This document shows positions 1,431 to 34,941 of a stretch of DNA of 36,548 bases, in pieces. The stretch covers positions 65,603-102,150 of the forward strand of contig VAXZ01000111.1 in NCBI GenBank assembly GCA_005885035.1. The letters are read 5' to 3'. The notes below the pieces were generated by a model. The model had not been told where the DNA came from. It made no database searches and worked only from the letters and a program-made list of their open reading frames with translations. The position numbers were made by a program, and so were the translations under genes. The first letter of the stretch is position 1. Every line of letters begins with the position of its first letter. Source of the stretch: Actinomycetota bacterium. Its GTDB lineage: Bacteria > Actinomycetota > UBA4738 > HRBIN12.

Positions 1431-2159
1431 GTGCTGGCGAAGGACGTGACGCGGGTCGGCGTGGTGGGTTTCGGTCTGATGGGTTCCGGGATCGCTCACG
1501 TCGTCGCTCGCGTCGGGATCGATGTCACCGTGGTGGAGCCCACCGAAGACCTCTTGGCGCGCGGACGCGAGCGGCTCGATGCGTCGACCGGCAGGGCGGT
1601 CGAGCGGGGCCGCGAGCTCGATCGCGTCGTCGGCCCTGACGCGGTGTTCGCGTCGAACACCTCGTCGATCCCGATCGCGACGCTCGCGTCGGCGACGTCT
1701 CGCCCGGACAGGGTCGTGGGCCTGCACTTCTTCAACCCCCCGCCGGCGATGGATCTGATCGAGGTCACGCCGTCGCTCATGACGAGCGCGGACACGGTCT
1801 CGTTCGCGCGCAGGTTCGGCGAGCGTCTGGGCAAGACGACGGTGCTCGCGAAGGACGAGGCGGGGTTCATCGTGAATCGGCTCCTCATCCCGTACCTGTG
1901 CGCCGCGATCCGGTTGCTCGACGAGGGGTTGGCCACTCGTGAGGACATCGACATGTCGATCGCGCTCGGGTTGAACCATCCGATGGGTCCGCTCCGCCTG
2001 GCCGACCTGATCGGACTCGACACCGTCCTGCAGATCGCCGACGTGCTCTTCGACGAGTTCCGCGAGCCGGCCTACGCGCCCCCGCCGCGACTGCGGCGGA
2101 TGGTCGCGGCCGGCCGGCTGGGGCGCAAGTCGGGTGCCGGTTTCTACGATTACGGCTGA
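1431..2159 (+). CDS. 3-hydroxyacyl-CoA (3-hydroxybutyryl-CoA) dehydrogenase with internal deletion
   Basis: Start GTG 1431 is preferred over the longer ORF (1404) because GGGGGAG lies 6 bp upstream; this gives 242 residues. The family oxidises 3-hydroxyacyl-CoA with NAD+. Seen here: dinucleotide motif GFGLMGSG (13-20), ASNTSS (74-79), GLHFFNPP with catalytic His99, Glu111 in LIEVT, Asn149 in FIVNR, and the C-terminal dimer domain with NHPMGPLRLADLIGLD and SGAGFYDYG. Odd: the stretch that normally separates the nucleotide motif from ASNTSS (RI..T.DL....DLVIEA.E...K...F) is missing. RAVERGR runs straight into ELDRVVGPD, about 45 residues short and in frame. Usual length is about 280-290. Either a true deletion removing part of the NAD site or a sequence/assembly artefact. 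It converges with the cupin gene 7 bp away. Confidence 0.85.
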   Translation: MLAKDVTRVGVVGFGLMGSGIAHVVARVGIDVTVVEPTEDLLARGRERLDASTGRAVERGRELDRVVGPDAVFASNTSSIPIATLASATSRPDRVVGLHFFNPPPAMDLIEVTPSLMTSADTVSFARRFGERLGKTTVLAKDEAGFIVNRLLIPYLCAAIRLLDEGLATREDIDMSIALGLNHPMGPLRLADLIGLDTVLQIADVLFDEFREPAYAPPPRLRRMVAAGRLGRKSGAGFYDYG

Positions 2160-2481: not shown

Positions 2482-3111
2482 CTAGAGCGTGATCCCGAGG
2501 ACGGCACGAGCTCGCTCGAGATCGTCGCTCGGCACCATCAGCGCGCCGGTCGCGCGGCCCCGATCGTCGCTGGTCGCGGTCTCGACGTGGACCTCGATCC
2601 CCGCATCGCGGAGTCGCTCGAGCTGGGTCGCCATCCCGGCGAGCACGCCGGAGGCGACCTCGACGAAGGGGTCGTCGTCGTCCGTCGCATCGTCATCTCC
2701 GGCCTCCACGACGGCATCGATCAAACTCGGGTCACCCGTGTACTCGACCAGCACGGCCTGCGCCGCCGCGAGGTTCGTGTCATGGATCAGGACCTCGACA
2801 CCGCCGTCCTCCGTTCGCTCGCCCAGCCTCGTACCGATCCCCTCCGCTCCCAGGGCCTCGATCAGGCCCGGTGCGTCGTCTTCGACCATGACGGCGAGGA
2901 TCAACCGCTTGGGTGGACGTTCCTCACGGTCGAACAGATCGGACGACGACGCGTTTCCGCTCGCTTCATCGGTGTCCGCGCGGTAGGCGAAGCTCGCGGG
3001 AGCAACCCGGTGGGTCGGCCCATGCTCGAGCAGGCCGCCGCACTCGGTACAGATCGTGTATCCCGCTCGGTTCTCGGCACCGCAGTCGGGGCAATGGACG
3101 ACGTCGCTCAT
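2482..3111 (-). CDS. Zinc-ribbon protein with DUF2007-like domain(s)
   Basis: 209 residues. An N-terminal zinc ribbon has Cys7-x2-Cys10 and Cys21-x2-Cys24 (CPDCGAENR, CTECGG). An acidic, low-complexity linker leads to a segment (about 68-125) resembling DUF2007-type 'putative signal transducing' domains: VLIHDTNLAAAQAVLVEYTG with preceding LIEALGAEGIG. A second similar unit may occupy about 150-209 (LERLRDAGIEVHV, LMVPSDDLERARAVLGI). Between them is a run of aspartates. Start ATG 3111 lacks an obvious ribosome site; it lies 10 bp after the epsilon-like gene, so coupling is likely. Role unknown; its place between carboxylase genes and a cupin suggests an accessory or regulatory job. Confidence 0.6.
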   Translation of the reverse strand: MSDVVHCPDCGAENRAGYTICTECGGLLEHGPTHRVAPASFAYRADTDEASGNASSSDLFDREERPPKRLILAVMVEDDAPGLIEALGAEGIGTRLGERTEDGGVEVLIHDTNLAAAQAVLVEYTGDPSLIDAVVEAGDDDATDDDDPFVEVASGVLAGMATQLERLRDAGIEVHVETATSDDRGRATGALMVPSDDLERARAVLGITL

Positions 3112-3398: not shown

Positions 3399-4985
3399 CT
3401 AGAGCGGGATGTTCCCGTGCTTGCGGGCGGGGACGGACTCCCGTTTCGTGGAGAGCATCCGGAGCGCCCGGATCAGGCGGGGCCGGGTCTCGGCGGGCTC
3501 GATCACCTCGTCCACGAACCCCCGCTCGGCGGCCGCATACGGGGTCGAGAACTTGTCTCGGTACTCGCGGATCAGCTCGGCGCGCTTCAGTCCTGGGTCG
3601 GCGGCCCGCTCGATCTCTCTCTTGAACACGATGTTGACCGCTCCCTCGGCCCCCATCACCGCGATCTCGGCCGTCGGCCAGGCGAACGAGACGTCCGCCC
3701 GAAGGTGCTTGGAGTTCATGACGAGGTAGGCGCCGCCGTACGCCTTACGCGTGATCACCGTCATCCGTGGCACGGTCGCCTCCGCGAACGCGTAGAGCAA
3801 CTTGGCTCCGTGCCGGATGATGCCGTTGTACTCCTGTTGCGTTCCCGGCAGGAACCCCGGCACGTCGACGAAGGTCAGGATCGGGATGTTGAACGCGTCG
3901 CAGAACCGAACGAACCGCGACGCCTTCTCGCTGGCGTCGATGTCGAGCGTCCCGGCTCGAACCTTCGGCTGATTCGCGACCACCCCGATGCTCCGTCCGT
4001 CGAGCCGCGCGAACCCGATCACGATGCTGTCGGCCCAGAGCGGGAAGACCTCGAGGAAGTCCCCGTCGTCCACCACGTAGCGGATCACCTCGTGCATGTC
4101 ATAGGGCTCTTGCGCCCGATCGGGGATCAGGTGCGTCAGCGCCTCGGCTCGACGCTCGGGGTCGTCGGTGCTCGCGTACCCGGGCGGATCTTCGAGGTTG
4201 TTCGATGGGAGGAACGACAGCAGGTACCGGACGCGCTGCAGGACGTCCTCGTCGTCCTCGCCCACGAACGAGGCGACGCCGGATTCGGTCGCGTGCGTCA
4301 TGGCACCGCCGAGCGCCTCCATCGTCACGTCTTCGCCCGTCACCGTCTTGATCACATCCGGGCCCGTGATGAACATATGCGACGTTTCCTTCACCATGAA
4401 GGTGAAGTCGGTGATCGCCGGTGAGTACACCGCGCCGCCGGCGCACGGGCCCATGATCACGCTGATCTGCGGGATCACGCCGGACGCGCGGACGTTCCGC
4501 TCGAAGATGTATCCATAGCCGGCGAGGCTGGCGGCGCCCTCCTGGATCCGTGCCCCGCCGGAGTCGTTGATCTGGATGAAGGGCGCACCGGTCTGCAAGG
4601 CGAGGTCCATGACCTTGCACACCTTCTGCGCGTGTACCTCGCCCATCGATCCACCGAACACGGTGAAGTCCTGCGACGCCACGAAGACCTTCCGTCCGTC
4701 GATCGTGCCGTAGCCCGTGATCGCTCCGTCGCCGGCCGGTCGACGCTTCTCCATCCCGAAGTCATGCGAGCGATGGACGGCGAAGGGATCGGTCTCCACG
4801 AAGGACCCGATGTCCATCAGGATGTCGAGCCGCTCGCGTGCGGTCAGCTTGCCCTTGTCGTGCTGTCGCTGAGCTGCCTCGCGTCCTCCCGGCTGGAGCG
4901 CGGACCTGCGGCGCTTGTGGAGCTCGTCGATCCGATCCTCGATCGTGCGGTCGGCGGGGGCGGCTGCCTTCTCGGTCTTCGCCAT
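3399..4985 (-). CDS. Acyl-CoA carboxylase carboxyltransferase (beta) subunit, PccB/AccD type
   Basis: 528 residues, normal for the family. It transfers CO2 from carboxybiotin to acetyl- or propionyl-CoA. Seen: N-terminal [14 protein letters not shown], crotonase-type halves with SGGARIQEG and [10 protein letters not shown] oxyanion loops, [17 protein letters not shown], and the classic C-terminus KHGNIPL. At the position known to set acyl preference in Streptomyces PccB/AccB (Asp versus Ile in GGAY-x-VM) this protein has Leu, so relaxed or acetyl/longer-chain preference is possible; that is inference. First gene of a four-gene minus-strand operon. TAGACT lies 7 nt before ATG 4985 and no ribosome site is seen, so the mRNA is probably leaderless. 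Confidence 0.92.
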
Positions 4986-4992
4986 AGCGGGG

Positions 4993-4998
4993 AGTCTA
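4993..4998 (-). promoter_or_regulatory. -10 box TAGACT of the carboxylase operon
   Basis: TAGACT on the minus strand ends 7 nt before ATG 4985, the spacing expected when transcription starts on the start codon. No purine-rich ribosome site fits in the gap. No clear -35 box. Confidence 0.5.
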
Positions 4999-5010
4999 GC
5001 GACGGCGCCG

Positions 5011-5463
5011 CTAGCAGGCCTTCACGGGCCAGCCGGCACGCCGCCAACCTCCGAGCGCACGCACCATCCGGACCGTCACGATCGCGTTCGAGCGACCGGA
5101 GAGCGCCGAGGACGACAGCATCCAACTCGGTTGCGTGTACGTCGTGAAACGCAACGGCCAGTAGGTCGCCGAGTGCTGGTAGAGGCCAAGGTACTTCCCC
5201 TTGGGCGAGCTGGCGGACGGGATGAGTCCGCTCTCGCGCCGAGCGATGCAGATCGCGCGTGCCGCCCCGCCCGTGATGGGACCGTACACGCCAACGGCGC
5301 ACCGGATCAGTCGTTCGGAGAAGTGCTGGATCGCCTCCCCGTCGCGGCGGGTGAGCTCGCAGGGGTGATGCGGATGTCGTCCCGCCGCCGCCGGGGATGG
5401 GAGGAGGAGGGTCGAGACGACGAGGACCGCGACCAGCAGGAGCGTGCGCACGCGTCGCTGCAC
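5011..5463 (-). CDS. Small secreted lysozyme/transglycosylase-like protein
   Basis: 150 residues from GTG 5463. Residues 1-27 are a signal peptide ([17 protein letters not shown] ending PSPAAA). The mature domain has the SLT/lysozyme-like pattern [20 protein letters not shown] with a candidate catalytic Glu77 in RRESGL, then [10 protein letters not shown], which matches the ESG...GLfQ layout of goose-type and SLT folds. Cysteines at 35, 55, 72 and the last residue could form disulfides. The long ORF in the track (to 5859) runs upstream over the neighbour in another frame and is not the gene. TAGGGT 8 nt before GTG 5463 suggests leaderless expression. Likely peptidoglycan cleavage or remodelling outside the cell; activity is inferred. 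Confidence 0.7.
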
Positions 5464-5471
5464 GGATCCGG

Positions 5472-5477
5472 ACCCTA
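5472..5477 (-). promoter_or_regulatory. -10 box TAGGGT of the lysozyme-like gene
   Basis: TAGGGT on the minus strand, 8 nt before GTG 5463. This supports the GTG start and a leaderless transcript. No recognisable -35. Confidence 0.5.
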
Positions 5478-5528
5478 GCACGAGCGTTCCACGACGCCCC
5501 GCGCGCCGGTTGGCTTGCAGAGCACCCC

Positions 5529-6083
5529 TCAGCGCGCGTCCCCCGGTCCGCCGGCGCGCCAGTACTCGCCGTGGTCTCGACCGAGGAGGCCCTCGTCCAC
5601 GAGCGCTCGGCGGAGCGCGGCGTGATCGTTGAAGAACCGCGCGACGATGCCGTTGACCTCCTTCTCGTCGTAGCGCCGTCCCGGTTCGAACTCGATCGCG
5701 ATCCGTTCGAGGACCATCCGGCGCTTCGACCTCTTCGTCGGGATCTCGGTCAGGCGGCCGTTGCGGAAGAACGTCCGCAGGACCGACCTCTCGGTCGGGG
5801 TGACCGCTCCGAGCACCAGCCCGGTCTCGCGCGGCGGGCCGACCTGCTCCGCGGCCCACCGCAACGTGTCCCGGTCGAGCCAGTAGGAAGCGCGATCCTG
5901 GCTCACCCTCGCCACGCCGGCCGACGCGAGACGGTTGAGGTGGGTGCGGACCCGTTCGACCGGGAGGTCGAGCGCCTCGGCGAGCGTCCGTGCGCTCGCG
6001 GGCCCTCGAGCGAGGATGCCGGCGATCGCCAGGCGTTGGGGGTCGGCGAGCGCGCGCAGGATCTCGTCGGGCGTCTCGGCCAT
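5529..6083 (-). CDS. HTH (ArsR-like) regulator with DUF2087 domain
   Basis: 184 residues from ATG 6083, chosen because GGGGGAG lies 8 bp upstream; the track ORF extends further but only as a shadow of the divergent nuclease. Residues 1-75 form a winged helix typical of ArsR-type repressors (ILRALADPQRLAIAGILARG, ARTLAEALDLPVERVRTHLN, ASAGVARVSQ). Residues about 105-180 match DUF2087: LRTFFRNGRLTEIPTKRSKR, KEVNGIVARFFNDHAALRRA, LVDEGLLGRDHGEYWR. DUF2087 often accompanies HTH domains but its ligand is unknown. No metal-binding Cys pair is seen, so this is probably not a metal sensor. It is divergent from the Fe-S nuclease with only 27 bp between starts, so it may control both genes. Confidence 0.8.
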   Translation of the reverse strand: MAETPDEILRALADPQRLAIAGILARGPASARTLAEALDLPVERVRTHLNRLASAGVARVSQDRASYWLDRDTLRWAAEQVGPPRETGLVLGAVTPTERSVLRTFFRNGRLTEIPTKRSKRRMVLERIAIEFEPGRRYDEKEVNGIVARFFNDHAALRRALVDEGLLGRDHGEYWRAGGPGDAR

Positions 6084-6098
6084 GTCGGTGCTCCCCCG

Positions 6099-6104
6099 TA
6101 GCAT
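6099..6104 (+). promoter_or_regulatory. -10 box TAGCAT of the nuclease gene
   Basis: TAGCAT ends 6 nt before ATG 6111, consistent with a leaderless mRNA. The box overlaps the 8-bp palindrome AGCATGCT (6100-6107), which could serve as a binding half for the divergent HTH regulator; that is inference. Confidence 0.45.
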
Positions 6105-6110
6105 GCTCGC

Positions 6111-7076
6111 ATGCAGCTGACGGACCCGCAGCGTCGGACCCTCCAGCAGCTGATCGGCACCGGGGAGCGCCCGGTGTTCCCTGCGGACCTCGCGCAACGG
6201 CTCCGCGATCGGATCGAGGGAGCGGCCCGGAGCCTCGACCTGCCGGACGGGCTCTGGCTCGGCAAGGAGAAGCTGAACGATCTCGGCCGGTGCGAGGGCG
6301 CCTTCTCCTCCAAGATCGCGGGCGAAGCGCCGCCGTTCGAGCATGGACGCGCGAGCGCCACGGGCGTCCTCCAGCACCGCGCGATCGAGGTGGTGGTCGG
6401 CGCGCGCGAGGCCCTCGACCCCCATACCGCTGCCGAGCTCTCCGTCGAACGCACCGTGGAGAAGGAGGAGCGCTTCGCGGAGTACTGGGCGGGGCTGCCC
6501 GCTCCGGAGCGCGACGACATCCAGATGGAGGTCGTTCGGCGGACGATCCTGTTCGAGGCGTCGTTCCCGCCGCTCCGAGAGCTCCGTCGCGAGCTCTCGC
6601 CCGCGACGGAGCTCTCGGTGCGCGCCGAGCTGCTCGGCGGGGCGCTCGTGATCTCGGGCAAGCTCGATCTGCTCCTGGGGGCGCCGGACCGGCTGGAGCC
6701 CATGCGCGCCACGCGGATCGCGATCGACCTGAAGACGGGAAGCGCCTATCCCCAATACGCCGAGGACAACCGGCTCTACGCGCTGGTCCTCGCGTTGCGT
6801 TTCGGCGTCCCGCCGTTCCGGGTCGCCTCGTTCTTCCTCGAGGGCGGGACGTGGCAGGCCGAGGACGTCGATGAAGGCACCCTGTTCCATGCCGCCGATC
6901 GGGTCGTGGAGGCTGCTCGGTCCGCGGCCGCGATCCACAACGGTCGGGAGCCGGGCCTCACGCCAGGCCCGTGGTGTGGCTGGTGCCCGCGGGTGCAGGT
7001 GTGCCCCGCGGCCGACCCCGATGCCCGGTCATCGGTGGCGGAACCATCCGTTGTCGGCTCAGCCGACCGTCGCTAG
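6111..7076 (+). CDS. Stand-alone PD-(D/E)XK nuclease with Fe-S cysteine set (RecB/Cas4/AddB-like)
   Basis: 321 residues. The nuclease core is visible: Asp186 in ISGKLDLLLG, then IAIDLKTG with Asp206 and Lys208, then NRLYALVLALRFG (motif with Tyr/Leu helix). Four cysteines are spread as in Fe-S nucleases of the AddB/Cas4/RecB-like group: Cys61 (DLGRCEGAF) near the N-terminus, and Cys289, Cys292, Cys298 (CGWCPRVQVC) at the C-terminus. No helicase domain is fused and no CRISPR genes are nearby, so a DNA-repair exonuclease role is more likely than spacer acquisition. The mRNA appears leaderless. The stop TAG (7074-7076) overlaps the promoter of ccr. Confidence 0.8.
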   Translation: MQLTDPQRRTLQQLIGTGERPVFPADLAQRLRDRIEGAARSLDLPDGLWLGKEKLNDLGRCEGAFSSKIAGEAPPFEHGRASATGVLQHRAIEVVVGAREALDPHTAAELSVERTVEKEERFAEYWAGLPAPERDDIQMEVVRRTILFEASFPPLRELRRELSPATELSVRAELLGGALVISGKLDLLLGAPDRLEPMRATRIAIDLKTGSAYPQYAEDNRLYALVLALRFGVPPFRVASFFLEGGTWQAEDVDEGTLFHAADRVVEAARSAAAIHNGREPGLTPGPWCGWCPRVQVCPAADPDARSSVAEPSVVGSADRR

Positions 7077-7079
7077 GGT
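7051..7079 (+). promoter_or_regulatory. Promoter TTGTCG-N17-TAGGGT for ccr
   Basis: TTGTCG (7051-7056) and TAGGGT (7074-7079) are 17 bp apart, a good sigma-A-type arrangement, located in the 3' end of the nuclease gene. Transcription would start near 7086 and give a leader of about 35 nt with GAGGGG before ATG 7121. Confidence 0.6.
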
Positions 7080-7120
7080 TCCGCAACCCACTGGCGCGGC
7101 GTGAGCGAGGGGTTCGTTGC

Positions 7121-8362
7121 ATGGGCAAGGACGTCTACGACATCGGTGAGCTCCCGCCGCTCGGCGAGGTTCCACCCCGCATGCATGGGATGCTCGTCCG
7201 TCCCGACCGGCTCGGCGACCCCAGCGACGCCATACGGGACGAGGTGATCGACGTCCCCCAGGTCGGGCCGCACGACGTCCTGGTCGCCACCATGGCTGCG
7301 GGGGTCAACTTCAACAACGTCTGGGCCGCCCGGGGTGTCCCGATCGACGTCACGAAGGGTCAGTCGCGATGGGGTGAGCCCACCGACTTCCACATCGTCG
7401 GCTCGGACGCGAGTGGGGTCGTTTACGCCGTGGGCTCGGACGTGCGAGATGTCCAACCGGGAGATGAGGTGGTCGTTCACCCGGGGCAATGGAACCTCGA
7501 CGACCCCTGGGTCATGTCGGGCAAGGATCCGGGGCTCGCATCCAGCTTCCGCGTGTGGGGCTACGACACGTGCTGGGGATCCATGGCGCAGTTCACGAAG
7601 GTCCAGGAGCACCAGTGCTTGCCGAAGGCAGATCATCTGACGTGGGAGGAGGCCGCGGCTCCGACGCTCACGGGTGGCACCGCGTACCGGATGCTCTTCG
7701 GGTGGCCACCCCACACGGTTGAACAGGGTGACCTCGTCCTCGTCTGGGGCGGAGCGGGGGGATTGGGGTCACTGGCGATCCAGCTGGTCACCCACGCCGG
7801 CGGTCGGGCGGTCGCGGTGGTCGGCTCTCCGGAGAAGGCCGAGTACTGCCGGTCACTCGGCGCGGTCGGCTCCATCAACCGGAAGGACTTCAGCCATTGG
7901 GGCGTGCCCCCCAGGTGGGACGCGCCCGGATGGAAGGAGTGGCTGGAGGGTGCGAAGGCGTTCGGGAAGGCGATCTGGGAGGCGGTGGGCGAGAAGACCA
8001 ACCCTCGCATCGTCTTCGAGCATCCCGGGGAGGACACTATCCCCACATCGAACTTCGTGTGCGACCGGGGCGGGATGATCGTGATCTGCGCGGGAACCTC
8101 GGGATACGACACCCTGATCGACGTTCGCTACCTCTGGTACCTGCAGAAGCGATACCAGGGCTCCCACCTGATGAACACCGAGCAAGCGGCCGCGTTCAAC
8201 GACCTCGTGCGTGACGGGACGATCACTGCGACGCTCGGCACCGCGTACGCCTACGACCAGATCCCCGCCGTCCATCACCTGATGGAGGAAGGCGGGCTCC
8301 CGGAGGGGAACGTCAGCTGCCTCGTGAACGCGCCGCAGACGGGCCTCACGACCCTTCGCTGA
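7121..8362 (+). CDS. ccr: Crotonyl-CoA carboxylase/reductase
   Basis: 413 residues from ATG 7121, which follows GAGGGG; the track ORF starts too early. Ccr is an MDR-family enzyme that reductively carboxylates crotonyl-CoA to ethylmalonyl-CoA with NADPH. Seen: AGVNFNNVWAARG with the CO2-binding Asn (Asn65), the long Ccr-specific insert HPGQWNLDDPWVMSG, NADPH loop VWGGAGGLGSLA, the Ccr signature INRKDFSHWG, and YQGSHLMNTEQA with the CO2-binding His349. At the position usually Glu in the family motif (GYET/GFET) there is Asp149 (WGYDTCWGS). Neighbours in the window include a thiolase, a dehydrogenase and an epimerase, consistent with the ethylmalonyl-CoA pathway or ethylmalonyl extender supply. 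It converges with the epimerase gene 24 bp away. Confidence 0.92.
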   Translation: MGKDVYDIGELPPLGEVPPRMHGMLVRPDRLGDPSDAIRDEVIDVPQVGPHDVLVATMAAGVNFNNVWAARGVPIDVTKGQSRWGEPTDFHIVGSDASGVVYAVGSDVRDVQPGDEVVVHPGQWNLDDPWVMSGKDPGLASSFRVWGYDTCWGSMAQFTKVQEHQCLPKADHLTWEEAAAPTLTGGTAYRMLFGWPPHTVEQGDLVLVWGGAGGLGSLAIQLVTHAGGRAVAVVGSPEKAEYCRSLGAVGSINRKDFSHWGVPPRWDAPGWKEWLEGAKAFGKAIWEAVGEKTNPRIVFEHPGEDTIPTSNFVCDRGGMIVICAGTSGYDTLIDVRYLWYLQKRYQGSHLMNTEQAAAFNDLVRDGTITATLGTAYAYDQIPAVHHLMEEGGLPEGNVSCLVNAPQTGLTTLR

Positions 8363-8386
8363 AGGCCTGAGGGCTGGCGGGTCGGT

Positions 8387-8797
8387 TCAGCCCGGCTGGA
8401 CGAGCTCGACCAAGACACCGCCCATCGATCTCGGATGCACGAACGCGATCAAGGTGTCCCTCGAGCCCTGCCGGGGCACACGGTCCACCAGACCCGCGCC
8501 CTGCGCGCTCAGGTCCTCCAGCGCGGCGGCGACGTCACGGACCCGATAGGCGACGTGGTGGAGACCCGGTCCACGCGTCGCGAGCGAGCGTCCCACCGAG
8601 GAGTCCGGCCCGATCGCCCCGAGCAGCTGGATGAACGAGGACCCGACCGCGAAGAGCACTTCGTCGACCCCTTGGTCCTCGACGCGTTCTCGGTGGACAG
8701 GCTCGATCCCCAGCAACGTGCGGTACCGCTCGACCGAACCCTCCAGATCCTCGACCGCGATCCCTACGTGGTCGATGTCCAAGAGATGGATCGTCAC
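8387..8797 (-). CDS. mce: Methylmalonyl-CoA (ethylmalonyl-CoA) epimerase
   Basis: 136 residues from GTG 8797 with GGGGGA 4-5 bp upstream; upstream codons in the track ORF are not part of it. Glyoxalase/VOC fold with two beta-alpha-beta-beta-beta units. Metal ligands of the family are all visible: His in IDHVGIAVED, Gln in SFIQLLG, His in GLHHVAYRV, and Glu in LVELVQ at the C-terminus. It interconverts the (R) and (S) forms of methylmalonyl-CoA; in ethylmalonyl-CoA pathway organisms the same enzyme also acts on ethylmalonyl-CoA. Placement next to ccr supports the latter. A minus-strand TAGGGT box lies about 44 nt upstream. Confidence 0.9.
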   Translation of the reverse strand: MTIHLLDIDHVGIAVEDLEGSVERYRTLLGIEPVHRERVEDQGVDEVLFAVGSSFIQLLGAIGPDSSVGRSLATRGPGLHHVAYRVRDVAAALEDLSAQGAGLVDRVPRQGSRDTLIAFVHPRSMGGVLVELVQPG

Positions 8798-8840
8798 GCT
8801 TCCCCCATCACGATCTCCTGCGCCGACCCATCGCGAAGAG

Positions 8841-8846
8841 ACCCTA
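8841..8846 (-). promoter_or_regulatory. Candidate -10 box TAGGGT for mce
   Basis: TAGGGT on the minus strand lies 43 nt before GTG 8797, giving a leader of about 37 nt. No good -35 at 17 bp. It lies in the 197-bp divergent region between mce and the FtsH-like gene; on the other side TACGGT (8948-8953) is a weaker candidate for the protease gene. Confidence 0.4.
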
Positions 8847-8994
8847 TCCATCTTCCCTCGATGCTGCGGCCGAGGTTCCCCAGAGGTCTGGACATCCGGT
8901 CCCCCGACCGAGCCGAAGGTCCGATAGCCGGGTGAGGCCATCCGATGTACGGTGGATCGATCGGGAATCTCCCCACGACGAGGAGCACGCGCTC

Positions 8995-10815
8995 GTGAAC
9001 GACAGGACGCCAGCCAGCCCCGCCGCACTCCTCGAGGGGTCCCAGCTCATGCGCCAGGGGACAGCCGACGTCTTCCGTCATCGTGAACGCAGCCGTCTGA
9101 AGAAAGTGCTCCGCGCCATCGCGGTGGTGTTCCTGCTCGATGCGTTCCTCTACGACTGGTACACGACGGGACACCGGATCGGGTTGCCGTCGTTCGGGCC
9201 CGAGTTCATCTACTTCTTGCCGGTGATCGGCATCTTCGTCGCGATCGCTTTCATGGCGCTGATGCCTTTCATGTTCGGTCGCTCACCGCACCTCACCGTG
9301 TACCCGGAGCAGGTGGAGATCGGACTCACCGAGATCAAAGGTCTGGACACGCAGGTCGATGAAGTGATCCGGACCCTCGACGTCTTCCTGGGGTACGCGA
9401 CCTTCCGGGACGAGCTCGGCGGGACGCCACGGCGCGGCATCCTCTTCGAGGGGCCGCCGGGCACCGGGAAGACCTTCCTCGCCAAGGCGATGGCGAAGCA
9501 GGCGGGCGTGCCGTTCATGTTCATCCCCGCGCCGTCGTTCGTCTCCATGTGGCAGGGCATGACGGCCTGGCGGATCCGGGCCTTCTTCAAGAAGCTCCGA
9601 AAGGCGGCGCGCAAGGAAGGGGGCGCGATCGGCTTCATCGAGGAGATCGATGCGGTGGCGATGTCGCGTGGCGGTGTGTCCTCCGCCACGGCAGCGCCGA
9701 GCGACCTCGCGCGTACCACGTCCGCGTTCTTCGGCTCCGGCGAGGGGAGCATGGTGAACGAGCTGCTGATCCAGCTGCAGTCCTTCGACACCCCACCGTG
9801 GCGGGACCGGGTGCGGGGCAAGCTGATCGCGTGGGTGAACGGATACCTCCCGCCCAACCGCCAGTTCCACTCGATCCGGCCCGAGTACCACAACATCTTG
9901 CTGATCGCGGCGACCAACCGCGGCGACTCCCTCGATCCCGCCCTCCTTCGTCCGGGTCGGTTCGACCGCCGTCTGTACTTCGACCTTCCGACGAAGCAGG
10001 AGCGTCGAGACCTGATCGATTTCTTCCTGGCTCGGAAGTCCCACGACGAGCGATTGGACGTCGATGCCGATCGCGAACGGATCGCGCACGAGACGTTCGG
10101 CTACACCCCGGTCATGATCGAGCACCTGTTCGACGAAGCCTTGCTGGTGTCGCTCCGCGAGGGACGAAAGCGGATGAACTTCGAAGACGTGATGGAGGCG
10201 AAGTTCACGGAGGAGATCGGCACCAAGCAGGTGACCAACTACACGGAGACCGATCGAGACGCCGTCGCCACCCATGAGGCGGGGCACGCCACCGTCGCCT
10301 ACCTGGTCGGCGTCGGACGGCGGCTCGAGGTGTTGTCCATCATCAAGCGTCGCGGCGCGCTGGGACTGCTCGCGCACAGCGACGAGGAGGAGCGCCTCAC
10401 GCGAACGAAGACCGAGCTCGAGGCCGGGATCGCGATCGCACTCGGAGGTCTCGCCGCCGAGGAGATGTGCTTCGGTGAGTCGGGGACGGGCCCGGGCGCC
10501 GACCTCGCAGCGGCAACGTCACTCGCGGCGCAGATGGTGGGGTCCTTCGGGATGGCGGGATCCCTCATCAGCTACGAGGCCGTCGCCGACGGACCCCTGT
10601 CTCGCTCGAACCTCGTGGGCAAGGTGCTCGGGAACCCCGAGACGAAACAGCGGGTGGAGGACATCTTGGATGGCCAGCGCGAGCGCGTCCGCGAGGTGCT
10701 CGCCGAGAACCGCGACATCCACGCAGCGCTCCGCGACGCCTTGATGGAGCACGACGAGCTCGTCCGCGACGAGATCCTCGAGGTCATCGAGAAGGCGCTC
10801 GCGAACCGGCTCTGA
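8995..10815 (+). CDS. FtsH-like membrane AAA+ zinc metalloprotease, divergent
   Basis: 606 residues from GTG 8995, chosen for GAGGAG 9 bp upstream. Two membrane helices (about 38-56 and 70-94) are separated by only about 15 residues, against about 70 in FtsH. AAA+ module: Walker A GPPGTGKT (153-160), Walker B-like FIEEIDA (214-220) with Glu where FtsH has Asp, and the arginine-finger segment ATNRGDSLDPALLRPGRFDR (306-325). The pore loop reads FVSMWQGM instead of the FVEMFVGVGA type. An insert of about 40 residues lies between Walker B and the arginine fingers. Protease: HEAGH (427-431) with third zinc ligand Asp503 (GADL). The protease site is intact, so membrane-protein degradation is likely, but substrate handling probably differs from FtsH. 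Likely a paralogue rather than the housekeeping copy. Confidence 0.85.
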   Translation: MNDRTPASPAALLEGSQLMRQGTADVFRHRERSRLKKVLRAIAVVFLLDAFLYDWYTTGHRIGLPSFGPEFIYFLPVIGIFVAIAFMALMPFMFGRSPHLTVYPEQVEIGLTEIKGLDTQVDEVIRTLDVFLGYATFRDELGGTPRRGILFEGPPGTGKTFLAKAMAKQAGVPFMFIPAPSFVSMWQGMTAWRIRAFFKKLRKAARKEGGAIGFIEEIDAVAMSRGGVSSATAAPSDLARTTSAFFGSGEGSMVNELLIQLQSFDTPPWRDRVRGKLIAWVNGYLPPNRQFHSIRPEYHNILLIAATNRGDSLDPALLRPGRFDRRLYFDLPTKQERRDLIDFFLARKSHDERLDVDADRERIAHETFGYTPVMIEHLFDEALLVSLREGRKRMNFEDVMEAKFTEEIGTKQVTNYTETDRDAVATHEAGHATVAYLVGVGRRLEVLSIIKRRGALGLLAHSDEEERLTRTKTELEAGIAIALGGLAAEEMCFGESGTGPGADLAAATSLAAQMVGSFGMAGSLISYEAVADGPLSRSNLVGKVLGNPETKQRVEDILDGQRERVREVLAENRDIHAALRDALMEHDELVRDEILEVIEKALANRL

Positions 10816-10838
10816 CCTCCCTCCAGGGGCCGCGCTCG

Positions 10839-10844
10839 TACACT
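10839..10844 (+). promoter_or_regulatory. -10 box TACACT of the thiolase gene
   Basis: TACACT ends 6 nt before ATG 10851, again the leaderless layout. It lies in the 35-bp gap after the protease stop, so the thiolase need not depend on read-through. Confidence 0.5.
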
Positions 10845-10850
10845 CGGTGC

Positions 10851-12032
10851 ATGACCAGCTCGTTCATCGTCGCCGGGGCGCGAACGCCCATCGGGAGGTT
10901 CCGCGGCGGTCTCGCGCCGCTGCGCGCGGTGGACCTCGGAGGCGCCGCGATCCGCTCCGCGCTCGAGCGAGCAGGGATCGAGCCCGACCACGTGGAGTAC
11001 ACCGTCATGGGGCACGTCCTGCAGGCGGGGCAGGGCCAGATCACCGCGCGACAGGCCTCGATCGCCGCGGGGGTCCCGAAGGAGATCCCTGCGCTCACGG
11101 TCAACAAGGTGTGCCTGTCCGGCATGTCGGCCATCGCGATCGCCGATCAGATGATCCGTGCGGGCGAGCTCGAGATCGCCGTCGCGGGCGGCATGGAATC
11201 GATGACGAACGCCCCGTACCTCGCACCGACCGCCCGTGAGGGGGCGCGGCTGGGCGACGCACCGCTGATCGACGCCATGATCCACGACGGGCTCTGGTGC
11301 GCCTTCGACGACCGTCACATGGGCGCGGGGACCGACGCGATGAACGACGAGTACGGCGTCACGCGGGAAGCGCAGGACGCCTGGGCCGCCCGCTCGCATG
11401 TGCGCGCGGCAGCCGCCTGGGATCAGGGCCGGATGGAGGAAGAAGTGGTGGCCGTCTCCGTCCCCCAGCGAGGGGGCGAGGTCGTCGAGGTCGGGCGTGA
11501 CGAGGGGATCCGAGCGGACAGCACGCCGGAGGCGCTCGCGGGGTTGCGGCCGGCGTTCTCGCCGGACGGAACCGTGACCGCGGGCAACGCCTCGCAGATC
11601 AGCGACGGCGCGTGCGCCGTCGTGATCGCCTCGGACGCGGCGGTCGAGCGGCTCGGTATCGAGCCGCTCGCCGAGATCGTCTCCTACGGGATGTCGGCCG
11701 ATCGGTACGCGTCGCTGCACACGGTCCCGGCCCTCGCGATGGAGAAGGCACTCAAGAAGGCGGGCCGATCCACCGCGGACCTGGGGCTCGTCGAGATCAA
11801 CGAGGCGTTCGCCGGGGTCGCATCGCACGCGGCTCGCCTGCTCGAGCTCGATGAGGCGATCGTCAACGTCAACGGGGGAGCGGTCGCGCTCGGTCATCCG
11901 ATCGGTGCGAGCGGCGCGCGGATCGTCCTGACGCTCGCGCTCGAGATGTGTCGGCGGGGCGTCGCCCTGGGCGGCGCCGCTATCTGTGGCGGCGGCGGCC
12001 AGGGCGACGCCCTGGTCCTGCGCCTGGCGTGA
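10851..12032 (+). CDS. Acetyl-CoA acetyltransferase (thiolase)
   Basis: 393 residues, typical of biosynthetic/degradative thiolases. Condenses two acetyl-CoA to acetoacetyl-CoA or cleaves 3-ketoacyl-CoA. Catalytic residues visible: Cys88 in NKVCLSGM, NEAFA, His349 in ALGHPIGASGAR, and Cys379 in AICGGGGQGDA. The common CIGGGQG reads CGGGGQG here. It provides the entry step for a 3-hydroxybutyryl-/crotonyl-CoA route with the dehydrogenase (1431-2159) and Ccr (7121-8362). Leaderless promoter at 10839-10844. It converges with the coiled-coil protein gene with 15 bp between stops. Confidence 0.92.
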   Translation: MTSSFIVAGARTPIGRFRGGLAPLRAVDLGGAAIRSALERAGIEPDHVEYTVMGHVLQAGQGQITARQASIAAGVPKEIPALTVNKVCLSGMSAIAIADQMIRAGELEIAVAGGMESMTNAPYLAPTAREGARLGDAPLIDAMIHDGLWCAFDDRHMGAGTDAMNDEYGVTREAQDAWAARSHVRAAAAWDQGRMEEEVVAVSVPQRGGEVVEVGRDEGIRADSTPEALAGLRPAFSPDGTVTAGNASQISDGACAVVIASDAAVERLGIEPLAEIVSYGMSADRYASLHTVPALAMEKALKKAGRSTADLGLVEINEAFAGVASHAARLLELDEAIVNVNGGAVALGHPIGASGARIVLTLALEMCRRGVALGGAAICGGGGQGDALVLRLA

Positions 12033-15160: not shown

Positions 15161-17689
15161 GGCCGGGCCAGCGCCGGAGAGCACCCGGGTCTCACCCGTG
15201 CGGACGTCCTTGTCGAGCACGATCAGGTCCTCCATGAGCTGACGCATCTGCTCGACGTGGGAGACGACGACGACCAGGCGATCGACGTCACCGGCCACGA
15301 GGCGGCCGATCCCGTCCATCGCACGGTCGAGGTGTTCGGCATCGAGGCTCCCGAACCCTTCGTCGAGCAGGAAGCTGTCGAGGCGACCACCTCCCCGCGC
15401 GACCATCTCGGCGAGCGCGAGCGCGAGGGCGAGCGATGCGAGGAAGGTTTCGCCGCCCGAGAGCGAGTCCGCGGTCCGGTCGGCGGCCCCGGCGTTCATG
15501 TCGAGCACGTGGAAGGCATCGTCATCGCTGAACCGGTATGCCCCGTCGGTCAGCTCCTCGAGGTGCACGCTTCCCAGGTCCGCGAGTGCGGCTCGCTCCT
15601 CTTCCAGGAGGTACGCGAGGAACCGCGACGGTTGCAGATCGGCGACGAGCCGTCGCGCGACGTTCCGAGCTCCGGTCGCGACGACGAGGCGAGCCTCGAG
15701 ATCGGCGCCCGCCGCCAGGGTTTCCTCGATCGTTCGGACGCGCTCGGCCGATGCGGCGGCGGCGGCCGCGGCGTCGGCGACCACGCGGGCGACGTCCGCG
15801 TCGGGCGGAAGGTCGAAGGCCGCGAGCTCGGCGGCGACTGCCTCCGTCGCCGCGTGGGCCTCTGCCGCCGCCCGGTCGCCGGCTTCGGCAGCTTCAGTGA
15901 GCCGCTCCACGAGCGTCTCGCCGATCTCCACGTAGGAGCTGCGGACGTCGGCCGCAGCGGTGCCGACGGGGCGGGGCTGCCCCAGCAGTCCCCAGGCCGA
16001 CGCCAGCTGGTTCGCGAGGGTGGCGAGCCCGCGACCCGTCTCGTCCGCCTGGACACGGCAGGTCTCCAACTGGGTGCGGGCCGCGTCGGCGGCAGCCGAC
16101 GCGGCCCGAACCGCGGTCTCCGCCAGCTCGAGCTCGTGCTGGCGTTCGTCCAACAACGCCCGCGGATCGCCGTCGCCCAGCCGGTCGACGAGCTCGCTCT
16201 TCGTCGTGGCGAGTGCGGCTTCGGCGTCCCGGGCGGCGTCCTGACCTGCGACGAGTTGGATCGCGAGGGCCTCTGCCCGCTCGCTGCCGGCGGCCGACTG
16301 CTCGAGGGCGGTGGCGGCCCCCGCAGCCGCTTGCTCCTTGGTGTTGCGCGCCTTGGTCTCGACCGTCCGAGCCTTCGCGAGCGCACGGTCCGCCGCCGCG
16401 ACCTTGGGGGCGGCGCCGGCGCGCGGGACGCGTTCGACGACGCGGTCGCACACGGGGCAGGGCTCTCCGGCCGTCAGGTCACGTCGGAGCTCATGCGCCA
16501 TCTCGGCGTGCTGCGTGACGTGCAGCGCGGCCTCGGCCTCGGTGCTGGCGCTCTCCGCCGCTTCGAGGGCGGTCGTCGCGGCGTCGAGCGCTTCGCGCTT
16601 CTTCGTGGCGGCGCGCGCCAGGTCGTCCGCGGCGGCACGGGCCGCCTCCGCCTCCCGCGCGGCGACCTCCACCGCTCTAGCCGCCTGTTCAACGGCTCTC
16701 GCTTCGTGGTCCAGCTTCTCGACCAAGGCCGCGAAGGCCTGGAAGGCCGCGTGGCCGCCGATGCGTTCCGAGATCGCTTCGAGCTCGGCCTCGGCGACCT
16801 TCCTGGCTTCGTCCGCGGCGGTCACGTCCTCCTGCGCGATGCGCACGGCCTCAGTGGCTGCCGCCGCTGCTTCGGCCACCTCCTCGAGCCGTTCGGCCGT
16901 GGGCATGGCCGTCGCCGCCGCCTGGAGCTGCGCGGTCCGCGCCGACGCCTGGGCGGCATCGCGAAGCGCGGAATCTCGCGCTTGGGTGAGGCCGCCGAGC
17001 CTCTCACGCGCTGCGTCCAGGCTGGCGTGTCGCGCCGACGTCGCCGTGGCCTCCGCGCGTGCCTCGTCCAGGCGCGCACGCGCTTCGGCAAGCCGCGAGC
17101 CCTCCCGCTCGAGCTCGTCGAGCTCGAGCTCGGCGCCGCGGACCCGGTCCTTCGCCGCCGACAGCGCGGCATCGAAGCGTTCATAGCCGAACACGCCTTT
17201 CAGCACGGCGTTGCGATCGGTGGGGGTCGCCTTCAGGAACTCCGCGAACCGGTTCTGGGCGAGCAGGACCGACCGGCAGAACGCGTCGAAGGTCATCCCC
17301 AGCAAGCGCTCGACACGTTGACGCACCGGCTTCTCCTGCAGGACCGTCTCGAGCACCTCGGCGTCGTCCGCATCCTTCGCCAGGCGTTCGAGCCGATGCT
17401 GGCTCTGGCCCTTGCGTCGGAGCGCACGCTGCGCCCGCCAGATCTGACCGTCCACCTCGAACAGGAGCTCGACGTGGCAGCCGTCCTCGAGCTGGTGGAT
17501 CAGGGATCGCGTATCGCGCTCGAACGATGGCGTCTTGCCGTAGAGCGCGAAGACGACGGCGTCGAGGATCGTCGACTTGCCGGCGCCGATCGGTCCGACG
17601 ATGCCGACGAGCCGCCGGCCCCGGAGGTCGAAGGTCGTCCGGCCCCGGTACGACCGGAATCCTTGCACGGTCAGCTCACGCGGACGCAT
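15158..17689 (-). CDS. sbcC: SMC-family DNA double-strand-break exonuclease subunit SbcC (Rad50-like)
   Basis: 843 residues from ATG 17689 (MRPRELTVQGFRSYRG), preceded by GAGGAGG; the track ORF extends into sbcD in another frame. ATPase arm of the SbcCD (Mre11-Rad50) complex. Seen: Walker A GPIGAGKST (32-40), Q-loop NRFAEFL, two Ala/Glu/Arg-rich coiled-coil arms, a zinc hook CPVC near residue 410, the ABC signature LSGGETFLASLALALAL near 740, and Walker B with SFLLDEGFGSLD near 773. It is shorter than E. coli SbcC (about 1050) but within the actinobacterial range. Its start overlaps the sbcD stop by 14 bp, implying translational coupling and fixed stoichiometry. Confidence 0.93.
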   Translation of the reverse strand: MRPRELTVQGFRSYRGRTTFDLRGRRLVGIVGPIGAGKSTILDAVVFALYGKTPSFERDTRSLIHQLEDGCHVELLFEVDGQIWRAQRALRRKGQSQHRLERLAKDADDAEVLETVLQEKPVRQRVERLLGMTFDAFCRSVLLAQNRFAEFLKATPTDRNAVLKGVFGYERFDAALSAAKDRVRGAELELDELEREGSRLAEARARLDEARAEATATSARHASLDAARERLGGLTQARDSALRDAAQASARTAQLQAAATAMPTAERLEEVAEAAAAATEAVRIAQEDVTAADEARKVAEAELEAISERIGGHAAFQAFAALVEKLDHEARAVEQAARAVEVAAREAEAARAAADDLARAATKKREALDAATTALEAAESASTEAEAALHVTQHAEMAHELRRDLTAGEPCPVCDRVVERVPRAGAAPKVAAADRALAKARTVETKARNTKEQAAAGAATALEQSAAGSERAEALAIQLVAGQDAARDAEAALATTKSELVDRLGDGDPRALLDERQHELELAETAVRAASAAADAARTQLETCRVQADETGRGLATLANQLASAWGLLGQPRPVGTAAADVRSSYVEIGETLVERLTEAAEAGDRAAAEAHAATEAVAAELAAFDLPPDADVARVVADAAAAAAASAERVRTIEETLAAGADLEARLVVATGARNVARRLVADLQPSRFLAYLLEEERAALADLGSVHLEELTDGAYRFSDDDAFHVLDMNAGAADRTADSLSGGETFLASLALALALAEMVARGGGRLDSFLLDEGFGSLDAEHLDRAMDGIGRLVAGDVDRLVVVVSHVEQMRQLMEDLIVLDKDVRTGETRVLSGAGPA

Positions 17690-29130: not shown

Positions 29131-30291
29131 GTGCGTGTCGTGGTCGACGCGAGATCCGCGGTCGATCCCCGCCGGACGGGGGTCGGGCAGTACACGCGGG
29201 CGGTGCTGCGCGCCCTGCCGCCCGCCGATCCCGACGCACGGTTCGTCGCGTGGTACCTCGATGTCCGCGGGATCGGGACACGACCTCGCCGCTTCGTCGG
29301 CTGGGCTCCGAACCTCTCCGAGCGGGCGTCGCGGCTGCCGACGCGACTCTACGGCCCGTTCAGTTCCCGGACGGGTCTCCCGAGACTCGAGTGGCTGGCG
29401 GGAACGTCCGACGTGGTCCTCGCGACGAACTTCATCCCCCCGCCCACATCTGCGCCGCGCGTCGTCATGGTCGTGCACGACCTGACGTTCGAGGTGATGC
29501 CGGAGACCGCCCCGCATAACGACATCCGGTGGCGGCGAGCGTTCGAGCGGTCCCTCGACCGCGCCGCGGCCGTGATCGTCCCGAGCGAAGCAACGAGGAA
29601 CGACCTCGACCGGTTCTACGGGACCGATGCTCGACGCGTGCACGTGATCCACCACGGCACCGACGCCGAGGCGTTCTCCCCGGCGATCCCCCCCCAGGTC
29701 GAACAGGTCCGCCACCGGTTCGGGATCAAGGGTCCGTACATCATCTTCCTGGGGGGTCTTGAACCACGGAAGAACCTCGGGTCGCTGGTACGAGCATTCG
29801 GCATGATCGAGGACCGGCGCAGCTCGTTGGTGCTCGCCGGAGGAACGGTCACCTGGGCGTCGGACTACTCGGAAGCGATCGATCGGGCGATCGCAGCGCT
29901 CCCGACGGACGTCCGTGCTCGGATCGTCCGGACGGGCTACGTGCCCGACGCCGACAGGCGAGCGCTCCTTTCGGGCGCGGAGATGCTCGCGTATCCATCT
30001 CTGTACGAGGGGTTCGGTTTCCCCATCCTCGAGGCATTCGCAGCGAACGTTCCGGTGCTGACGTCCAACCGCTCATCGATGCCGGAGGTCGCAGGGAACG
30101 CCGCGCTGCTCGTCGACCCCGACGATCCAGCCTCGATCGCGAAGGGGCTCGACGAACTGCTCGGCGACGATGACCTGCGGAACGTTCTCCGGGCGTCCGG
30201 CATGGCGAGGGTCGCGTCCTTCACGTGGGAACGTTGCGCGCGCCAGACGGCAACGGTGCTGGGACAGGCATACGCGTCGATCGGGGGGTAG
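29131..30291 (+). CDS. Glycosyltransferase family 4
   Basis: 386 residues, GT-B fold. N-terminal acceptor domain with DARSAVDPRRTGVGQYTRA; a bridging VVHDLTFEVMPE; and a C-terminal nucleotide-sugar domain with IIFLGGLEPRKNLGSLVRAF, RIVRTGYVPDADRRAL and the EX7E retaining motif EGFGFPILE within YPSLYEGFGFPILEAFAANV. The VxQYTRxL and EPRKN patterns are typical of mannosyl/rhamnosyl-type transferases of exopolysaccharide clusters; donor and acceptor cannot be fixed. It acts on the cytoplasmic face during repeat-unit assembly. It converges with the sulfotransferase-like triplet with 15 bp between stops. Confidence 0.9.
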   Translation: MRVVVDARSAVDPRRTGVGQYTRAVLRALPPADPDARFVAWYLDVRGIGTRPRRFVGWAPNLSERASRLPTRLYGPFSSRTGLPRLEWLAGTSDVVLATNFIPPPTSAPRVVMVVHDLTFEVMPETAPHNDIRWRRAFERSLDRAAAVIVPSEATRNDLDRFYGTDARRVHVIHHGTDAEAFSPAIPPQVEQVRHRFGIKGPYIIFLGGLEPRKNLGSLVRAFGMIEDRRSSLVLAGGTVTWASDYSEAIDRAIAALPTDVRARIVRTGYVPDADRRALLSGAEMLAYPSLYEGFGFPILEAFAANVPVLTSNRSSMPEVAGNAALLVDPDDPASIAKGLDELLGDDDLRNVLRASGMARVASFTWERCARQTATVLGQAYASIGG

Positions 30292-30306
30292 GTCCCGAGG
30301 CACGTG

Positions 30307-31062
30307 TCACGGGAGCGTTTCGGTGAAGCTCTGGTACAGGGCCGAGAGGCGCCGGCGGAGGGTCGCTGGCGCGCCGAGGTACCCCGCCCTGGCGCGAGAC
30401 GCGACGTCGTCGTGGAGCTCTTCGGAGGGTGGTCGTTCCGTCCGCCCGAGCAGAGGAAGCCCCGGCCCAACGCGGTCGCGCCAGTATCGCTCGATGAGCT
30501 CGTCCCTCGCCGAGCGGCCGCTGGCCGTGACATCGGGGGTGTCGAACGACGTCCCGAACCGTTGGTTGATCCGCTCGACCCAACCCTCGGATCCGTCGAT
30601 GACGTCCTCCGATCTGCTCACGACGATCCGGTCCCGGTACGCGAGGAGGGGTTCGTAGAAGCGGCGATAGCCGCGCATGGCCTGCCCCACGGTGAGGTCG
30701 GGCTTGATCATCACCAACCTCACGACGGCGTCCTCGGGCGCGCGTATCAGGACCAGAACCGGTATCCCCGCTTGGACGCCGGCGATCACGTTCGCGGGCG
30801 CGTGCGTGTGATGCGCGATCCTGATCGACTTCGACTGAGCCGCCAGGAGCGACGCGAAGGCCAACGAATTGCCCGAACGCGGGTACCCCTCGATCACGAT
30901 GTCGGTCGTCGGGGTGACCACCACACCGTGACCGCGTGCACGGGCCGCTCGAAGCGCGAGCCTCGGGAAGCGCGACGTCATGGTCATCACCTCGTACGCG
31001 GCCCGGCTCGCGAGTGAGCGAGCGGATGGAACGCTCAGGGTCCGCTCACGGACGCCGCTCAT
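30307..31062 (-). CDS. Sulfotransferase-like protein, third of a tandem triplet
   Basis: 251 residues. P-loop 5'-phosphosulfate motif GYPRSGNSLAF (59-69), catalytic-type His87 in HTHAPA (equivalent of KTHLP in cytosolic sulfotransferases), and the 3'-phosphate region LIRAPEDAVVR (105-115). In the family pattern R-x3-D-x3-S the Arg and Asp are present but the Ser is Arg115. Further on, RFYEPLLAYRDRIVVSRSED resembles the conserved 'yrd..l.vryEdl' segment. Expected to transfer sulfate from PAPS to a sugar hydroxyl, but the serine change may alter cofactor binding. Its start overlaps the stop of the middle paralogue by 4 bp (ATGA). Confidence 0.7.
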   Translation of the reverse strand: MSGVRERTLSVPSARSLASRAAYEVMTMTSRFPRLALRAARARGHGVVVTPTTDIVIEGYPRSGNSLAFASLLAAQSKSIRIAHHTHAPANVIAGVQAGIPVLVLIRAPEDAVVRLVMIKPDLTVGQAMRGYRRFYEPLLAYRDRIVVSRSEDVIDGSEGWVERINQRFGTSFDTPDVTASGRSARDELIERYWRDRVGPGLPLLGRTERPPSEELHDDVASRARAGYLGAPATLRRRLSALYQSFTETLP

Positions 31063-31820
31063 GCCCCTCGGCCCGCGATGGCCGCGTACACGGACTGGGC
31101 ACGCCGCCGTCCCCGTGTCAGCCGGGGGTCCCGGAATCGCTCGCGCAGGGCCTGCTTGATCCGCTCGCGCTCGTCCGAGGGCCGCGCGACGATCCGTTCG
31201 AACTCAGCACCCGTTCCGGCCCGCTCCCGGTAGTCGCCGGATATCCGGGCGAAACAGCGCTCCACGTTCTCAGGCGTGTGTCTGAACCGATCGAACGTCG
31301 ACCCGAACCGTTCGTTCACCTGTCGGACCACGAGCCCGAAGTCGGTCGTCACGTCCTCGAACGAGCTCACCACGAAGTCATCGCGGTAACGGAGCAACGG
31401 CGCGTAGAAGCGGACGTAGCCGCGCAGCGCCTGCCGCATGGACAGATGGGGGTGGCGGATGACGAAGGAGATGATCGTCGACTCGGGCTCGCGGACGAGG
31501 ACGAGCGCCGGGATGCATCGACGTGCCGCTTCGATCACCTGTGCGGGAGCATGGACGTGACACGCGACCTGGACCTGCCTTGTTTGTGTTATCTCGACGG
31601 CGACCACCGCGAACGTCATGCCGCTCCGTGGGAACGCTTCGATCACGAGCTCGGTGTCGTCGCCGACCGGGATCCCGTGGCGGCGACGGGCGATGGGAAG
31701 CGCCACACCGGGGTACTTGGCCACCACCGTCTTCGCCTCGAACACGGCTCGTCGGACCACGAGCAGCGGAAGAGACGGGCCCACCCTCCTCGTCGGCAAG
31801 GCGCGCTGGACGTCTTTCAC
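31059..31820 (-). CDS. Sulfotransferase-like protein, middle of a tandem triplet
   Basis: 253 residues. P-loop AFPRSGMTFAV (62-72), His90 in HVHAPA, and LVREPESTIIS (108-118), where Arg110 and Ser118 of the 3'-phosphate motif are kept but the intervening Asp is Ser114. Also RFYAPLLRYRDDFVVSSFED and a C-terminal Arg-rich helix. It is the only one of the three paralogues that keeps the serine known to contact the 3'-phosphate of PAPS, so it is the best candidate for an active sulfotransferase. Both ends overlap its neighbours by 4 bp, implying coupled translation of all three. Confidence 0.72.
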   Translation of the reverse strand: MKDVQRALPTRRVGPSLPLLVVRRAVFEAKTVVAKYPGVALPIARRRHGIPVGDDTELVIEAFPRSGMTFAVVAVEITQTRQVQVACHVHAPAQVIEAARRCIPALVLVREPESTIISFVIRHPHLSMRQALRGYVRFYAPLLRYRDDFVVSSFEDVTTDFGLVVRQVNERFGSTFDRFRHTPENVERCFARISGDYRERAGTGAEFERIVARPSDERERIKQALRERFRDPRLTRGRRRAQSVYAAIAGRGA

Positions 31821-32539
31821 GACGGTGATGAGACGAACGCGCCCAGGAGGCGTTCCGCTCGTTCGCGAAGGTCACTGAGGTCTCGGGCGCGGTACTCCTC
31901 ACCGAGCTCCTCCTTCAGGTCCTCACGGATCTTCGAAGGGCGTCCCACCTTGCGCTCGAAGGCCACGCCCGGGGGGAGGCGGGTAGCCCAGTCCGCTTCG
32001 ATCGCTGCGAAGGCCGAGCGCACGTTGTCATCGGTGTGATCGAACTCGAGGAAGCGGGTCCCGAACATGGCATTCACCTTCGCGATCACCTGCCCGAAGT
32101 CGGAGGTCACCTCGCGGAAGGGACCGACGACGACCTGGTCGCGGTAGGGCAGCAGCGCGCTGTAGAAGCGGAGGTATCCTCGCAACGCCTGTCGGACCGA
32201 GAGGTACCCCTTCGCGATCACGAATTCCAACACCGCATCCTCGGGTTCGCGGATGAGCGTTATCGCTGCGACGCGGGCCCGCACAGCAGCGATCACCTGA
32301 GCGGGGGCATGCAGGTGATGCGCGATCCTGACGGGCCGGTCCTGGGCCACGCGGAACGCGTGGACCGCGAAGCTGTTCGCCGACCGTGGGTATCCCTCGA
32401 TGACGATGTCGACGTGTGGATCGAATGGTTCGCCGTGTCCACGGAGCCGTGCGACGGGAAGTGCGAGTGTCGGCGATCGCGCCAGGAGGGTCTTCCCCTC
32501 ATACAGCAGACGGTTCGCAGCGTTCCGGACCGCGGGCAT
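31817..32539 (-). CDS. Sulfotransferase-like protein, first of a tandem triplet
   Basis: 240 residues from ATG 32539. P-loop GYPRSANSFAV (49-59), His77 in HLHAPA, LIREPEDAVLE (95-105) with Arg97 and Asp101 kept but Glu105 in place of Ser; RFYSALLPYRDQVVVGPFRE and FGQVIAKVNAMFGT follow. The N-terminus (AANRLLYEGKTLLARSP) is basic and amphipathic, possibly membrane-associating; similar segments occur in the other two copies. It leads the triplet operon under a good promoter (TTGTTG-N17-TAGGGT). A negatively charged residue at the 3'-phosphate contact would disfavour PAPS, so a different donor, or a structural partner role, is possible. Confidence 0.7.
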   Translation of the reverse strand: MPAVRNAANRLLYEGKTLLARSPTLALPVARLRGHGEPFDPHVDIVIEGYPRSANSFAVHAFRVAQDRPVRIAHHLHAPAQVIAAVRARVAAITLIREPEDAVLEFVIAKGYLSVRQALRGYLRFYSALLPYRDQVVVGPFREVTSDFGQVIAKVNAMFGTRFLEFDHTDDNVRSAFAAIEADWATRLPPGVAFERKVGRPSKIREDLKEELGEEYRARDLSDLRERAERLLGAFVSSPS

Positions 32540-32548
32540 CGCGGTGGA

Positions 32549-32577
32549 ACCCTAGCGGCGACCAGCAGCGGCAACAA
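32549..32577 (-). promoter_or_regulatory. Promoter TTGTTG-N17-TAGGGT for the sulfotransferase-like operon
   Basis: On the minus strand TTGTTG (32577-32572) and TAGGGT (32554-32549) are 17 bp apart. The -10 ends 9 nt before ATG 32539, so the mRNA has almost no leader. One of the two best -35/-10 pairs in the window. Confidence 0.65.
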
Positions 32578-32598
32578 CAGGATGCTCGCGCGCGGACG

Positions 32599-34820: not shown

Positions 34821-34875
34821 CCCGGAGGTGCTAGCGGGCACGATCGCATGCGTCTTCCGGCCGGATCACGGTTGG

Positions 34876-34882
34876 TACTCTA
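34876..34882. promoter_or_regulatory. Bidirectional -10 element TACTCTA
   Basis: The 7-mer reads TACTCT on the plus strand and TAGAGT on the minus strand, the same TANNNTA design as at 1396-1402. It lies between the divergent glycosyltransferase genes and would give short leaders in both directions (about 25-55 nt). TTG at 34872 is next to it, but no -35 is convincing. Confidence 0.4.
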
Positions 34883-34941
34883 GCGAGCGCCGCCGGGACC
34901 GCTTCTTCCGCGGCGCACGTCTGGTCGAACCAGGAGGTCCG

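Follow-up and report, generated by a model that had tools for sequence, protein, structure and literature searches.

A 132-bp in-frame loss from the NAD domain of the only 3-hydroxybutyryl-CoA dehydrogenase gene in an actinobacterial genome assembly

The shortened 3-hydroxybutyryl-CoA dehydrogenase gene (hbd) at positions 1431-2159 (+ strand) of the window, by which we mean the whole 36,548-nucleotide stretch of DNA that was analyzed, appears to be an ordinary hbd gene that has lost a single in-frame segment of 132 bp. Taking both possible origins jointly, this loss is very probably either recent or artefactual, with a product that would lack dehydrogenase function. It would have occurred very recently on the lineage, or be limited to the assembled strain, or be absent from the organism. 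The defect is a singular one in an ordinary enzyme, and it most likely reflects either an allele that broke recently or an error of assembly, and not a new kind of enzyme. As it stands, the observation has little significance beyond its source genome.

The shortened gene and its full-length relatives

The gene consists of 242 codons and a stop, begins with GTG and ends with TGA, and its frame is open throughout, giving a translation of 242 amino acids that is an Hbd of the Mycobacterium tuberculosis FadB2/PRK07819-like type. The glycine motif GFGLMGSGIA lies on beta1 as residues 13-22 and agrees with the GxGxMGxGIA pattern. The first half of the NAD domain is kept at 1449-1610 (+ strand) and comprises this motif, beta1, alpha1, beta2 and a shortened alpha2. 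The retained second half (1611-1862, + strand) resumes in the middle of alpha4 and contains beta5, the SNTSS motif with Ser78, His99 and Glu111. The C-terminal 3HCDH (dimerisation) domain (1863-2156, + strand), with the surrounding GFIVNRLL (Asn149), is intact. Profile searches mirror this arrangement. Specifically, 3HCDH_N (PF02737, 180 positions) matches the window protein in two broken stretches, the best of which covers profile positions 99-179 only, compared with a single stretch over positions 2-179 in the congener Hbd, and 3HCDH (PF00725) is complete in the window protein (positions 1-97). The NCBIfam model PRK07819 scores the window protein at 327.3, only just over its cut-off of 319, while the congener protein P0002 reaches 393.9 bits. 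Anyone reconstructing metabolism from this assembly would thus find a complete Hbd listed, since the score still just satisfies the annotation model.

An earlier note, made from the sequence of this stretch, had claimed an in-frame loss of about 45 residues in the NAD domain. This loss is real in the assembly, and the exact count is 44. DNA alignment of the window gene with hbd from two genomes of the same genus, loci L002 (AC_51) and L003 (AC_66), shows exactly one large gap against both, of 132 bp or 44 codons and in frame, and DNA identity over the region, with the gap set aside, is 88-89%. Close relatives, which the note had proposed as a comparison, are represented by both congeners, and these are full length: their hbd product has 286 amino acids in each, without the deletion that the window protein carries. 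These are the same gene as that in the window, with protein identities of 93 and 91% outside the gap, and in L003 the hbd neighbours are also the same. DNA, pairwise (L120, L121) and codon alignments place the junction at 1609-1611 (+ strand) with a 1-nt (C) ambiguity. The left flank, GAGCGGGG(C), runs up to 1609/1610 and the right flank, CGCGAGCTCGATCGCG, starts at 1611, such that window positions 1602-1626 read GAGCGGGG-C-CGCGAGCTCGATCGCG with the C common to both sides.

A broader view of this difference comes from the distance between the glycine motif and xSNTSS. The note had put it at about 61 residues in the window against about 107 in clostridial Hbd; we measured 61 in the window protein and 102-106 at all other loci. 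This count covers 76 loci in which both motifs were found, or about 70 sequences; the window gene is there in three copies, and a few other loci are overlapping records of a single gene. A shortening like that of the window is absent from every relative measured in this set. Shortening across the whole clade is therefore ruled out, as the gene has its full length in the two congeners and in the other relatives that were measured.

Content of the lost segment and predicted structure

The nearest solved structure, and the best match by both sequence and fold, is M. tuberculosis FadB2 (PDB 6hrd; PRK07819). It has the motifs in the same order, and the window protein has counterparts of its Ser122, His143 and dimerisation domain (PMC6333283). 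The fold order of FadB2 is beta1-alpha1-beta2, alpha2, alpha3, beta3, beta4-alpha4-beta5 (PMC6333283). FadB2 keeps beta3, beta4 and all of alpha4, whereas the window protein is without these 44 residues. In the model of a full-length control the lost residues 61-104 correspond to a helix (64-72), beta3 (74-77), beta4 (88-91) and the first half of a further helix (97-110). The earlier note had described strands four and five as missing. Two strands are indeed lost, but by the control model and the FadB2 labelling they are beta3 and beta4, accompanied by half of the next helix, and beta5 is kept.

The lost piece also carries a conserved VIEAxxE...K segment that is absent from the window protein. 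Three of its residues, E91, E95 and K100 (L002 numbering), are invariant in 47 homologues and all lie inside the gap. E95 is what we take to be Glu110 of human mitochondrial HADH (1f0y), a member of the same family that has all later motifs in common with the window protein but keeps the segment with Glu110; this is the residue altered in the E110Q structure 1lsj, which is among our fold-search matches. In the Rossmann sheet beta4 stands between beta1 and beta5, and its loss should thus strip the NAD pocket of a wall. E95 and K100 lie 27 and 22 residues from the catalytic Ser, and by this spacing they correspond to Glu90 and Lys95 of Faecalibacterium prausnitzii Hbd, both of which hydrogen-bond NAD (PMC11476959). 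We infer that the loss of beta4 and of these NAD-contacting Glu and Lys residues keeps the Rossmann sheet from closing and NAD from binding. The statement in the note that the catalytic residues are intact holds for those downstream of the junction, as the alignment shows Ser78, His99, Glu111 and Asn149 all kept, but it does not extend to the NAD-contacting pair inside the lost piece. The product, if made, would very probably be no working dehydrogenase despite its retained catalytic Ser, His and Glu and its dimerisation domain.

Structure prediction, which the note had also suggested, gave the short chain high confidence over much of its length (mean pLDDT of 89.1), with a drop to 50-63 around residues 51-70. 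The weak stretch is in line with a non-functional product, and the confident remainder counts against one. The full-length control model has a mean pLDDT of 95.9 with no residue below 70, and values of 92-98 over the part that matches residues 51-70. A fold search with the short-protein model recovered the same family, with a TM score of 0.90 to 6hrd when normalised by query length. Note that the model is driven by an alignment of full-length homologues, and it is therefore no evidence that the short chain folds.

Copy number, selection and the origin of the loss

A PF00725 match is present in all 21 of 21 genomes, that of the window included, and mostly in exactly one copy. The window hbd is the only 3HCDH gene of its genome, where a search with a full-length query (E up to 10) found no second intact Hbd and returned only one weak match at 29%. 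Apart from the deletion there is no further lesion in hbd, with start, stop and frame all intact. Lineage-specific changes over the 242 shared codons occur at a nonsynonymous:synonymous ratio of 7:15 in the window gene, as compared with 7:17 and 11.5:29.5 in the congeners. These remaining codons thus give no sign of relaxed selection or of long-standing decay, although the counts are small enough that weak relaxation could be missed. The lack of visible decay after the deletion indicates that the loss is either very recent or not in the organism.

A perfect hairpin with a 14-bp stem and a 6-nt loop closes the lost piece in L003, its outer end at most 3 nt from the right breakpoint. Such closeness to a hairpin end of this kind is seen at about 0.14% of positions in comparable sequence, a figure obtained post hoc. 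Also in L003, the lost piece is flanked by the imperfect direct repeats GCAAGCTCGAT and GCGAGCTCGAT, which are 11 bp long with one mismatch and are 135 bp apart. The longest exact repeat common to both deletion ends is 8 nt. The hairpin in combination with the imperfect repeats suits slipped mispairing past a hairpin. Exact slippage from repeat to repeat was rejected, as it would remove 135 bp and leave a different junction from that of the observed 132-bp loss. Perfect hairpins also occur elsewhere in the window, at 33799-33839, 16077-16108 and 6575-6618 (stems of 19, 14 and 17 bp), and stems of 19 and 17 bp are also found among the hairpins of congener loci L126 and L120.

The earlier note had offered two explanations, an enzyme that is truly shorter and a deletion made in assembly. 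A third, a real and recent deletion that inactivated Hbd in this strain, explains the data no worse than the second, and we give it close to an even chance. It would leave the step broken or bypassed, for example by a short-chain dehydrogenase acting on acetoacetyl-CoA. The hairpin and imperfect repeats at the deletion ends are as expected of slipped-mispairing deletions, and FabG/PhaB-like short-chain dehydrogenases are present in the genome. However, all of these proteins fall under the PhaB cut-off, which makes the bypass putative, and loss of a sole copy that is clustered with ccr and thiolase genes should be costly. The other origin is an artefact, in which the organism would have a full-length gene and 132 bp were skipped in assembly or consensus at the GC-rich hairpin, an explanation that we rate at somewhat less than even. 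In its favor, this is the only Hbd of the genome, nearly all relatives keep exactly one, the rest of the gene looks fully constrained, and the assembly is split into 166 contigs and 86.8% complete. The hairpin can moreover create a gap in read depth that is wrongly closed by the assembler. Against it, the 8-nt exact repeat is too short for ordinary k-mer collapse, the locus is mid-way in a 102-kb contig, and about 30 kb of this contig aligned to the congeners contains no other comparable deletion. A locally error-ridden contig is likewise ruled out, since besides the hbd gap and a 42-bp gap at 3011 that alignment shows only small indels. Overall we lean slightly towards a real deletion, by slipped mispairing or associated with the hairpin, and away from an assembly slip. 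The data barely distinguish the two, however, and they are about equally probable.

There is much less room for the remaining explanation, a naturally shortened Hbd that is functional through a rebuilt cofactor site or that has another role, such as binding acyl-CoA or dimerising with a partner, and we consider it improbable. The gap is in frame, the start, stop, catalytic Ser, His and Glu and C-terminal domain are kept, and relaxed selection was not detected. The intact reading frame without further lesions does count against a recent or artefactual loss, as a functional protein would look the same. Nevertheless, the central strand beside beta1 and the three invariant residues are gone, no relative has such a protein, and the genome contains no other Hbd as a possible partner. 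Of what the note proposed, a loss relative to close relatives, here of 132 bp, is supported and a functional shortened enzyme is not. More narrowly, it is very improbable that the 242-residue protein is a functional minimised dehydrogenase that lacks beta3 and beta4 and binds its cofactor in some other way, or a non-redox acyl-CoA binder. If the short protein did work, it would challenge which parts of the Hbd Rossmann fold are supposed to be indispensable.

Two other length differences emerged from comparing the contig with those of the congeners. The 42 bp missing at 3011 relative to congener L003/L120 (14 codons, in frame) fall in a zinc-ribbon gene (2482-3111), apparently in a variable linker. 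Conversely, about 480 bp present in the window at 5516-6047 are missing from L120, where matches stop at 5516 and restart at 6047.

Pathway context of hbd

Several genes near hbd code for enzymes of CoA-ester metabolism. A crotonyl-CoA carboxylase/reductase (ccr; 6971-8362, + strand) matches TIGR01751 at 503 bits, over its cut-off, as do a methylmalonyl-CoA epimerase (8387-9028, - strand; TIGR03081) and an acetyl-CoA C-acyltransferase, or thiolase (10851-12032, + strand; TIGR01930, also PF00108), for their respective models. An acyl-CoA carboxylase carboxyltransferase of the propionyl-/methylmalonyl-CoA type (3399-4985, - strand) reaches 830 bits against TIGR01117, below the cut-off of 999. 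The same contig encodes a methylmalonyl-CoA-type mutase about 10 kb upstream of the window, and another such mutase is found elsewhere. Together with the CoA mutase at G000:C113:53768-55309 (L141), the genes at 3399-12032 of the window make up a cluster near hbd. Crotonases, thiolases and acyl-CoA dehydrogenases are also found in the genome. This gene set looks like an ethylmalonyl-CoA-type route of an uncultured lineage of actinobacteria; the part of Hbd in this route would be the reduction of acetoacetyl-CoA. Finally, at the far end of the window, several glycosyltransferase family-4 genes lie close together at 29131-36222 and probably form a polysaccharide locus.
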